Source: Fictibacillus enclensis
GTDB lineage: Bacteria > Bacillota > Bacilli > Bacillales > Fictibacillaceae
DNA: 64,000 bases
NCBI RefSeq assembly: GCF_001457035.1
Contig: NZ_KQ758618.1
Location: 62,001-126,000, forward strand
Direction: 5' to 3'
The notes under the pieces were generated by a model. The model saw only the letters and a program-made list of their open reading frames with translations. It was not told the origin of the DNA and did not search any database. This document shows, piece after piece, positions 3,198-55,253 of the stretch (the first letter of the stretch is position 1; each line of letters begins with the position of its first letter). A program made the translations under genes and the position numbers.

Positions 3198-4700
3198 ATG
3201 AAGAAAAAGGTATATATGGTCATAGGCAACATTGATATTGATAAGGGAGGAATCACAAGGGTGATGCTGAACCGCTCCTGGCTTCTGTGTGAGAGGGGAT
3301 ACAGTGTTACCCTTCTAACATTGAATTTCAAGAAGAACTACCCAGAGGTGGAAGCAGCCCTAAAGGGAGTGGGGCGGCTGCATCCCGACGTAGAAATCCT
3401 GAACATCCATGATTTTTACAAAATGAAAAATACGTCAGGCTATAAAGAAGAAGCCATTTCAGAGTCTGAAGAAGATTATGTGGTTCATCGTGGTAAGCGT
3501 CATGAACGCTATTTTAAAAATGGAGTATTAATCAAAGATGAAAAACGTGATGCCAATGGAGAACTGAAGTATATAGATTATTATAATGAAAACCGATTAA
3601 GGTCGAGGAGAGAAGATTTTTACAGGGGCCAATTGTATAGAACAACTCATTATCACCCGTCAACACAAAAGGCAACAGTGAAAAATTATTGCACGGAGCA
3701 CGGTTTTTGTTATTTAAGCCGCTGGTATAACGGAGAAACAGGTGAGCTTGAGAAACTCTTTCTATTTAATGCCCAGGACCGAAGCTGTAAGATGTATACA
3801 TCCAATGAGGATTTTCACGTCAGCTGGCTGAATGAAATGTGCAAACAGTCGGAAGAGAAACCTTATGTCATTTGCGACGGGCCTGGCAGCGCAGCCAAAG
3901 TTTTGGATATCGATAAAGACCGGGCTTACCGGATTCTTGCAGTGCATACCAATCATTTTTCATTTCCCCATAAGAAGGGCAGTGACATTAAAAAGAATCA
4001 CAAAGAACTGTTGGACCGTTTCAAGGAGGCAGACGCTCTTGTGCTGCTAACTGAAGAACAGAAGCGGGACATTGCGGAGCAATACGGAGATCCGGGGAAC
4101 ATTTATGTTATTCCCCACTTTGTTACACCCATGGAGGATACGTCTTCTGTTCGAAAGGACCCTCACTTGATTTCGATGGTGTCCAGGCTGCATGAAGAAA
4201 AAGGGCTGGATGAGGCGATCAGAAGCTTTAAACAGGTGGTTGGCCAATTCCCGGAAACCCGGCTTGAAATACATGGGTCGGGACCGGCAGAGGAAGAACT
4301 GGCGGAACTGATTGCCGAATTGGATTTACAGCAGCATGTCCAGTTAAAAGGGTACTGCGATCAAGTGGGACATGTCTTCAAACAATCCCTTTTTACGGTG
4401 CTTACCTCCAAATATGAGGGGCTCAGCCTTGTGATTATGGAATCGATGGCGAACTACACTCCCGTGATCAGTTACAACATTAAATATGGCCCTTCTGATC
4501 TCATTGACCACGGCGTTGATGGATATCTCGTCCAAAACCGCAGTCAGGATGAATTGGCCCACTATATGCTTGAGCTGCTAAAGAACCCGGAGAAAGCCAA
4601 GACAATGGGGGAGGAAGGGTATAAAAAGGCAAAAGCAAGATGGAATGAAGAGCTTCATTTCCAGCACTGGGAAACACTGTTTGAAAAAATCAGCCATTAA
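3198..4700 (+). CDS. GT4 glycosyltransferase, TagE-like (teichoic acid glucosylation)
   Basis: Family 4 (GT-B fold) glycosyltransferase of about 500 residues. The N-terminal Rossmann half has IGNIDIDKGGITRVMLNRSW, and the C-terminal half has the retaining GT4 pattern: SMVSRLHEEKGLDEAI, EIHGSGPAEEEL and the acidic KYEGLSLVIMESMA loop that binds the sugar nucleotide. The long insert and the neighbouring glycerophosphotransferases suggest poly(glycerol phosphate) alpha-glucosyltransferase, the role of TagE in B. subtilis, although sugar specificity is not visible. An in-frame TTG at 3141 would add 19 residues; I prefer ATG 3198 because AAAGG lies 10 bases upstream and the conserved strand begins there. 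It converges on tagO. Confidence 0.75.
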   Translation: MKKKVYMVIGNIDIDKGGITRVMLNRSWLLCERGYSVTLLTLNFKKNYPEVEAALKGVGRLHPDVEILNIHDFYKMKNTSGYKEEAISESEEDYVVHRGKRHERYFKNGVLIKDEKRDANGELKYIDYYNENRLRSRREDFYRGQLYRTTHYHPSTQKATVKNYCTEHGFCYLSRWYNGETGELEKLFLFNAQDRSCKMYTSNEDFHVSWLNEMCKQSEEKPYVICDGPGSAAKVLDIDKDRAYRILAVHTNHFSFPHKKGSDIKKNHKELLDRFKEADALVLLTEEQKRDIAEQYGDPGNIYVIPHFVTPMEDTSSVRKDPHLISMVSRLHEEKGLDEAIRSFKQVVGQFPETRLEIHGSGPAEEELAELIAELDLQQHVQLKGYCDQVGHVFKQSLFTVLTSKYEGLSLVIMESMANYTPVISYNIKYGPSDLIDHGVDGYLVQNRSQDELAHYMLELLKNPEKAKTMGEEGYKKAKARWNEELHFQHWETLFEKISH

Positions 4701-53720: not shown

Positions 53721-55253
53721 ATGCAAATCAATCACAATATCGCAGCGCTCAACACGTTCAACAAATTAAACAGCGCAACAAACGCTCAATCTAAATCAAT
53801 GGAAAAATTGTCTTCAGGTCTTCGTATCAACCGTGCTGGAGATGATGCCGCAGGGCTAGCAATATCTGAAAAAATGCGTGGACAGATTCGTGGGTTGGAT
53901 CAGGCATCTAGAAATGCTCAAGATGGTATTTCAATGATTCAAACGGCTGAAGGTGCATTGAATGAGACTCATGATATTCTTCAGCGCATGCGTGAACTTT
54001 CTGTACAAGCTTCCAATGATACTAACACATTAGATGACCGCCAATCTATAGGTGATGAAATTTTTGAACTAAAAAAAGAGATAGATAGAATCTCTGAAAC
54101 AACTAAGTTTAACGGTAAAGGTTTATTAAATGGTGATATGTCTACTTCTCAGGATGCCACGTCAACAGCTAAACTAGGTGTTGCTATTGGTGCTGCTGTA
54201 ATATCAAAGGTTGATGTAAGTGGAGCTGTAGCTGGTACATCTTATACTTTTGCAGATGGTACAGCTGCTGATGGTAAACTCACTATGAATGCAACTGTAA
54301 ATGGAAAAACGGTTTCTGAAACAGTAAATGTTGGAGCCAATAGTCAAACTTTAAACTTTTCAAGTCTTGGAATTAGTATTGAACTTGCCGGTACTGAAAC
54401 TTCCACAAATATTGAAGCTAATCTAAGTGGTAAAACCATTGTAACTGCTACTGGAAGTGGAAATGCAACTTTCCTTGTGGGAAGCAATGGAGAAGCGGCT
54501 GAAAAAATCACTGTGGATTTTAAAAAGATGGATACAACAACTTTAGGTTCTGGTGGTGCTAATAACATTGCTGATAAAGTAACTGATAATACGGCAGTTA
54601 ATACTGTTGGTAAAGCGGATGCACTTACTGCTGTATTAGATAATGCTATTAAGCAAGTATCTCAACAACGTTCTAATTTAGGTGCTAACCAAAACCGTTT
54701 AGAACACACTATTAACAATTTGAGCACATCTTCTGAAAACCTAACTGCTGCGGAATCTCGTATCCGTGACGTAGATTATGCTTTAGCTGCCTAGGCAGTG
54801 ACAAGCACAGTCGTCCTGGCTGGTAACGGTCGGCGATCATAATCGGGTGAATTGCTGGAAACCCCTTAAGCTTTTCTTGCCACAACGTAGTTGGAAACAA
54901 CAGGCGTGACGGCTTGAAAAAAAGAAAAGATTGGGCAATCAGCAGCCAAGCTCCTGTCTTGAAAGAGTGGAGAAGGTTCAACGACTAGGATAGACCATCT
55001 AAGGCAACTGCTATGATGATGAAATCCGTAGGTGAAACAATGTATCATCAGCATTGTGAATCCGAAGTGCCCGGCCCCTACTAGATTGCTGGAGGGTGAA
55101 GATATAGTCTGGTCATTTATGAAAGTAAATGTTCGCACGATGGCGAAAGAAATGATGAACCAAACAAAGAATTCTATTCTTTCTCAAGCAGCACAAGCAA
55201 TGCTGGCTCAAGCAAATCAGCAGCCGCAAGGAGTTCTTCAACTTCTTCGTTAA
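53721..55253 (+). CDS. hag: Flagellin Hag, interrupted by a group I intron (join 53721..54776, 55140..55253)
   Basis: Filament protein of about 389 residues when spliced. Exon 1 gives the conserved N-terminal D0/D1 (MQINHNIAALNTFNKLNSAT, KLSSGLRINRAGDDAAGLAI, GISMIQTAEGALNETHDIL), a variable Ala/Thr/Gly-rich centre (about 140-300) and the start of the C-terminal D0 (LTAAESRIRDVD). Unspliced, the frame stops at 54792-54794 and loses the last 35-37 residues, needed for export and polymerisation. Exon 2 supplies MAKEMMNQTKNSILSQAA to VLQLLR. Joining at DVD/MAKEMM restores the normal flagellin end without gap or insertion. Exon 1 is richer in A/T than its neighbours, perhaps codon bias of a highly expressed gene. 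Expected control: SigD, CsrA/FliW and splicing. Confidence 0.85.
54777..55139 (+). ncRNA. Group I self-splicing intron in hag
   Basis: The core elements stand in the right order: P (TGAATTGCTGGAAACC, 54848-54863), Q (AATCAGCAGCCAAGCTCC, 54937-54954), R (GTTCAACGACTAGGA, 54976-54990) and S (GAAGATATAGTCTGG, 55098-55112). P7 forms between GACTA (54983-54987) and TAGTC (55105-55109). P9 is a 7-bp hairpin CATTTAT/GTAAATG capped by GAAA. A likely P2 pairs CTAGG (54791-54795) with CCTGG (54815-54819). The 5' exon ends in T and the intron in G, as required. Boundaries are uncertain by 3 or 6 bases: 54780-55142 and 54783-55145 also keep frame and the T/G rule. I prefer 54777-55139 because GTAG-a-T can pair with GCTGC (54786-54790) as P1. 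It has no endonuclease ORF. Confidence 0.85.

Follow-up and report, generated by a model that had tools for sequence, protein, structure and literature searches.

A group I intron in the flagellin gene of Fictibacillus enclensis and a putative degron in its unspliced reading frame

An intron-encoded tail on unspliced flagellin

A group I intron in a heavily translated gene raises the question of what becomes of the messages that are translated before the intron has been removed. We considered this question for the flagellin gene (hag) of Fictibacillus enclensis, which lies on the forward strand of a 64,000-nucleotide stretch of contig NZ_KQ758618.1 (assembly GCF_001457035.1, positions 62,001 to 126,000; hereafter the window) and is divided by a group I intron of 363 nucleotides (nt) at 54777-55139. 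In the unspliced frame, exon 1, which ends in RIRDVD, continues directly into the intron for the five codons Y-A-L-A-A and stops at TAG 54792-54794 (tail and stop codon together, 54777-54794, plus strand). According to PMC9382460, YALAA is the end of the Escherichia coli ssrA tag, LAA is the common tag ending, and LVA, AAV and SVA are tag variants. On the basis of a comparison of 154 introns and of the tag of the host's transfer-messenger RNA (tmRNA), we propose that the tail is an ssrA-like degron and that the intron probably encodes, in this way, a ClpXP-type signal that clears unspliced flagellin. An earlier, sequence-only reading of this DNA had described the intron; the YALAA-stop in the unspliced frame and the wide occurrence of the intron outside thermophiles go beyond that reading.

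The comparison set comprised 154 distinct related introns at this site of the flagellin gene (site A), the window intron included. The script that assembled the set required CACG/ATGGC, a terminal G and a D-V-D-like anchor, so these parts provide no test within it. The tail is exactly YALAA in 89 of the 154 introns, and its last two residues are AA in 145, VA in 7, AV in 1 and TA in 1. The last codon is GCT in 57 introns, GCC in 41, GCA in 32, GCG in 23 and GTA in 1, and the stop codon that follows is TAA in 130, TAG in 23 and TGA in 1. Tails of five residues were found in 136 introns, tails of six residues in 17 and a tail of eight residues in 1. The six-residue tails, which contain an extra codon, end in AA in 16 of the 17 cases and in VA in the remaining one, and the sole eight-residue tail, YALAASAA, has lost its first stop codon and ends in SAA. 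When introns were reached through a pattern at their far 3′ end, the tails of the at least 104 introns included 101 AA, 2 VA and 1 TA ends. As a control, an AA end was found in 1 of 379 other open reading frames (ORFs) of this genome (at least 120 residues, 464 kilobases (kb) sampled).

The tmRNA of the host encodes the tag GKTNNNLALAA, and the host genome contains clpX and two clpP genes. The tmRNA tags of 12 further hosts likewise keep AA at the end and vary in the residue before it (FAFAA, SLAAA, AVAA, LALAA and ALAAA); these hosts were picked to include unusual tails, and six tags were obtained by ARAGORN and six by a pattern that required AA or VA. An AA end is not general among group I introns, because the ORFs entering four other group I introns of relatives end in GGSR (two) or MSD (two), with frames taken from the longest ORF and splice sites not worked out for those four, and because the tails at a third flagellin site, described below, are mostly EMPL.

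In the filament, the flagellin C-terminal region, encoded here by exon 2, is paired with the N-terminal helix; it is also the region to which FliS binds. We propose that the spliced message yields mature flagellin, and that on an unspliced message the ribosome would read the five intron codons and then stop. The product would be a flagellin that lacks the C-terminal region for export and assembly and has YALAA as its new C-terminus. Such a subunit would be unable to assemble and could hold FliW, tie up chaperones, or clog or block export. ClpXP or some other protease recognising ends of this kind may destroy the tailed subunit first, and the intron would thereby limit the damage from its own incomplete splicing. 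Splicing in vivo, recognition of the tail by the host ClpXP, degradation of the tailed flagellin and the benefit gained from it are the steps of this model that we infer. If the model is correct, it would explain how introns survive in a gene that is among the most heavily translated in the cell, with a tag inside the intron removing the cost of translating the unspliced message. It also bears on whether selfish introns carry protein-level damage control, a question that here comes down to five codons and one protease. Moreover, predicted flagellins ending in DVDYALAA would be read-through products and not the mature protein.

The proposed tag resembles the ssrA/tmRNA-ClpXP system in that an LAA-type tag stands at the C-terminus of an unfinished protein. 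It differs in that the message's own intron would supply the tag, with no tmRNA involved and with a normal stop codon. It also resembles group I introns of bacterial protein genes in which the exon 1 frame enters the intron and soon meets an in-frame stop; PMC3984707 discusses such early stops as a folding aid. However, the four introns in relatives mentioned above end in GGSR or MSD and not in AA, and the folding-aid view needs no particular amino acids. Group I introns in the flagellin genes of thermophilic bacilli, a precedent that the sequence-only reading had correctly named, are attributed to Hayakawa & Ishizuka (2009, 2012) in PMC3984707 and PMC4853749, and the introns of Geobacillus stearothermophilus and thermophilic Bacillus are reported as IA2. 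These introns and the window intron are alike in being group I introns in a Bacillales flagellin, and Geobacillus proteiniphilus carries an intron at this same site with the tail YALAA. In the open literature, with subscription papers largely outside the search, we found no paper that links an intron with an ssrA-like tail and no paper on intron-derived alternative flagellin ends; two phage papers use both terms of the first pair once each. Group I introns of flagellin genes have been published before; the YALAA tail apparently has not.

Selection on the tail and competing explanations

Selection appears to act on the tail peptide, and this conclusion is well supported by a bias of change towards third codon positions, by unequal variation of the two strands of an RNA hairpin, and by codon insertions that keep AA. 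Codon changes were counted, as the fewest required, for the 136 introns whose tails have five residues, on a tree built from the rest of the intron with this region left out. At positions 1/2/3, codon 4 changed 1/6/16 times and codon 5 changed 0/1/57 times, so 73 of the 81 inferred changes in the last two tail codons fell at third positions. The tail stop codon changed 0/0/21 times, and the eight bases 3′ of it changed 35-54 times each. Nearby exon codons behave likewise (0/0/31 and 0/0/33 are examples). Codons 2 and 3 of the tail lack this coding pattern (8/9/9 and 11/11/8), and codon 2 tracks the pairing of P1, the helix at the 5′ splice site, and not the amino acid.

Several observations weigh against a degron. 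The AV and TA tails, 2 of the 154, lie off the AA/VA pattern, and the third residue from the end varies widely (L 106, E 15, S 10, A 9, I 6, F 4, Q 2, K 1 and V 1); the ClpX of these hosts may not accept EAA, KAA or SVA ends. Eight further matches were left out of the set for want of a 5′ end; in most of these, the missing stretch seems to lie beyond the edge of the locus, to be read as N or to be absent from the intron. The 154 introns are related sequences and not independent. Finally, a small hairpin in the P1 loop (GCUGC/GCAGU, 54786-54799, plus strand) overlaps both Ala codons and holds the stop codon in its loop. At least four of the five pairs of this usual hairpin are possible in 139 of the 154 introns, and some hairpin is possible in 153. 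Coding and structure are not fully separable, since the hairpin is conserved too.

The AA tail could thus be a by-product of the hairpin, only the ribozyme being selected, as the two Ala codons form its 5′ strand and codon 2 follows the P1 pairing. We regard this explanation as rather unlikely in view of how the hairpin varies. Among the 139 introns with the usual pairing, the coding strand has 7 variants versus 25 on the facing strand. The facing base would permit a paired G-to-A change in the last codon in 16 of these 139 introns, yet that G is kept in 154 of 154. In the stop codon, the U and A, which lie in the loop, show 0 changes, whereas the base just before them shows 57. All 15 introns in which the usual pairing is missing or weak have an AA end; RNAfold gives 14 of them a hairpin in a different register and leaves L118 (YAFAA) alone without one. 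The pairing register moves, then, with Ala-Ala-stop constant, and the codon insertions described above, after which 16 of 17 six-residue tails still end in AA, point the same way. Another explanation is that Ala-Ala-stop was selected for clean termination or ribosome spacing, an early stop keeping ribosomes off the ribozyme core. The near-constant length of the tails would be in keeping with it, but such selection predicts no particular amino acids, and the early stops at site C and in the four introns of relatives occur without AA. AA before a stop is not favoured in the other ORFs of this genome either (the 1 of 379 above), and we consider the termination explanation unlikely.

It was also considered that this is an ordinary flagellin group I intron that acts as a temperature switch for motility, the peptide having no role. 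PMC4853749 cites temperature-dependent activity of one flagellin intron of a thermophile (Hayakawa & Ishizuka 2012). A switch of this kind leaves the conserved peptide unexplained, although it is compatible with a degron, and the site-A intron is also present in Planococcus, Psychrobacillus and Sporosarcina. These genera are mesophilic or cold-adapted. As an explanation of the locus in place of a degron, we find the switch distinctly improbable. That the intron is dead and the flagellin gene a pseudogene is hardly credible: the Rfam match is full-length, P1, the boundaries, P9 and both exons are intact, and the gene is the single flagellin gene of the genome, standing beside intact flgK, flgL, fliW, csrA, flaG, fliD and fliS. 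A degron that clears unspliced flagellin therefore remains our preferred account of the tail.

The intron, its boundaries and the flagellin gene

The identity of the element at 54777-55139 (plus strand, Rfam RF00028) as a group I intron within the flagellin gene, which the sequence-only reading had proposed, is confirmed by covariance model. The check that this reading had named, a search with Infernal against the Rfam Intron_gpI model, was made with cmscan and gave a match at 54783-55131 on the plus strand (93.8 bits, E 7.7e-23, gathering threshold 50) that covers the full model (1-253 of 253). This is the sole Rfam match in the 64-kb window that reaches its gathering threshold, and a whole-genome scan found no second RF00028 match. 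The features on which the proposal had rested were found again on rereading the sequence: the P element AATTGCTGGAAA at 54850-54861, the Q element AATCAGCAGCC at 54937-54947, the R element GTTCAACGACTA at 54976-54987, the S element GAAGATATAGTC at 55098-55109, a GAAA-capped P9, and the boundary bases T54776 and G55139. According to the Rfam alignment, the four elements belong to a catalytic core, P3-P8, at 54842-55109 (plus strand, ends approximate), followed by the P9 hairpin with its GAAA loop at 55114-55131 (plus strand). A P2 hairpin was placed by eye at 54816-54833 (plus strand) in an alignment of 13 introns. No endonuclease domain was found by Pfam in the three intron-overlapping ORFs of at least 60 residues, and inspection by eye found no convincing P10 pairing between the guide sequence and the 3′ exon. 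Folding of the region as a whole came out mildly better than that of shuffled sequences (z -1.92) and was not used as support.

The 5′ splice site follows T54776 and the intron is 54777-55139, a boundary that we take as settled by sequence comparison. The 5′ strand of P1, GAU/UAUGCU (54774-54782, plus strand), pairs with the internal guide sequence AGCACAGUC (54804-54812, plus strand), in which G54810 faces U54776. The last exon 1 base is T in all 154 introns, where the script permitted C or T, and every one of the 154 has a guide anchor with G facing the splice-site U. Intron position +5 forms a standard pair in 154 of 154 (CG in 125, AT in 15, TA in 8, TG in 5 and GC in 1), and position +2 is an A-C mismatch in 147. 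Excision yields the junction DVDMAKE in 152 introns, DVDMAEE in 1 and DTDMAKE in 1. Among 13 introns that were collected by DNA similarity, GCACG/ATGG is invariant. An intronless flagellin of the same genus (G004) reads GAC/ATGGCGAAAGAA at this site, which is a precise empty site, and exon 2 is identical to it over the first 68 nt and at 108 of 114 nt overall.

The sequence-only reading had left two junctions open, DVD/MAKEMM and DVDYA/KEMM. The first is upheld by P1 across the 154 introns and by the intronless gene. The second is excluded by the P1 pairing, since it needs a U-G at intron position 6 that is present in 4 of the 154 introns only, and its would-be last exon 1 base is C in L014 and L025. 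An initial guess at P1, in which GAUUAUG would pair with CAUAAUC at about 54836, showed no covariation and was dropped.

Exon 1 (53721-54776, plus strand, from the ORF list) encodes 352 residues, and ORF 53721-54794 is this exon continuing into the intron up to the TAG. It matches the NCBIfam flagellin Hag model at 1.9e-92, a match under that model's own cut-off. Exon 2 (55140-55253, plus strand; Pfam Flagellin_C) encodes 37 residues, MAKEMM...QGVLQLLR, and the joined exons give a flagellin of 389 residues. Splicing would thus restore the C-terminus as it stands in the intronless gene of the same genus, and the unspliced product would lose the 37 residues of exon 2; the sequence-only reading had stated both, giving the loss as 35-37 residues. 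Its further claim, that the filament depends on splicing, is borne out by the presence of a single flagellin gene in the genome, where the sole other match (28%) lies at the window's flgL. The neighbours of the flagellin gene (flgK, flgL, fliW, csrA, flaG, fliD and fliS) are intact.

Other flagellin introns and distribution of the site-A intron

Many relatives carry a second group I intron 69 nt downstream of site A, at MLA/QANQQP (site B; L003, L007, L010, L011, L014, L025 and others), and among the 154 site-A introns, at least 55 have a site-B intron in the same gene. Of 84 anchored site-B introns, 83 open with a second C-terminus in frame. The first site-B rows were chosen by a motif in both ends, which makes their codon counts partly self-fulfilling; the count of 83 of 84 drops this condition for the intron-encoded end. 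Five of 89 rows were without the anchor, namely four site-A introns and the ambiguous L192. The intron-encoded end is most often QSNQMPQGVLQLLR-stop (33 of 83) and the spliced end mostly QANQQPQGVLQLLR-stop (68 of 83), and the two are never identical within one gene. One exception, in Oceanobacillus luteolus (L119, plus strand near 4112), reads MLA-QFEQIAA-stop and has an AA end.

The replacement ends at site B fit the idea that these introns make the unspliced message harmless. Fungal mitochondrial mobile elements bring their own C-terminal coding part. The site-B introns resemble them in supplying a replacement C-terminus, and the window intron differs in encoding an end of the destruction type. 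On balance, we lean towards a broader view in which bacterial group I introns have evolved fail-safe frames in a highly expressed gene. At site A, the frame would provide a degron as intron-borne quality control that is independent of tmRNA; at site B, it would provide a full replacement C-terminus, yielding two full-length flagellins, one from the spliced and one from the unspliced message, that differ in their last residues.

An intron of another type occupies a third flagellin site near the N-terminus, NAQDG/ISLIQTAEG (site C; 2799-3051 in L136, and also in L008, L078, L082, L086, L087, L096, L099, L119 and L262). Its tail is [RK].EMP[LR]-stop in 12 of the 13 listed rows, some of which are the same place fetched twice, and the remaining row stops after one residue. 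All three sites seem to be occupied by introns in one flagellin gene of Fredinandcohnia onubensis, the middle intron being partly read as N. Other group I introns of relatives (L052, L053, L055, L056 and L060) are alike in their core; we would guess that they lie in prophage genes.

Full-length matches to the site-A intron were found in 13 of 60 relatives, in 10 of 34 genomes of the family, in 2 of 7 within the genus, and in at least 73 of 397 genomes drawn from the order; one of these 73 (G274) is without the intron's 5′ part, and the counts include the present genome. A pattern scan found at least 104 introns, spread over at least 40 genus labels of which one is blank, including Geobacillus, Anoxybacillus, Planococcus, Psychrobacillus and Sporosarcina. 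Because of these genera, the intron cannot be regarded as confined to thermophiles. The label Pseudomonas sp. ISL-84 probably belongs to a misnamed record. Among phages, 183 of 50,697 records match, none of them covering more than 80% of the intron, and the 20 matches listed cover 42% at most; among plasmids, 4 of 72,556 records match, over 38-40% of the intron. Two viral contigs with the 3′ pattern reached no Rfam threshold, and we regard them as chance matches.

Genus labels cluster on the intron tree but remain scattered, with 100 changes versus 135.1 when shuffled and 68 the least possible. Group codes and names entered this count as distinct labels, and support is weak; the tree neither shows nor excludes transfer between genera. 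Ornithinibacillus halophilus (L121, L228) has a site-A intron without the 5′ part and without the usual exon 1 end, apparently a broken copy. In one flagellin copy of Neobacillus vireti (L160, near 4000-4080), exon 2, downstream of the intron, has a small deletion that puts a stop in frame.
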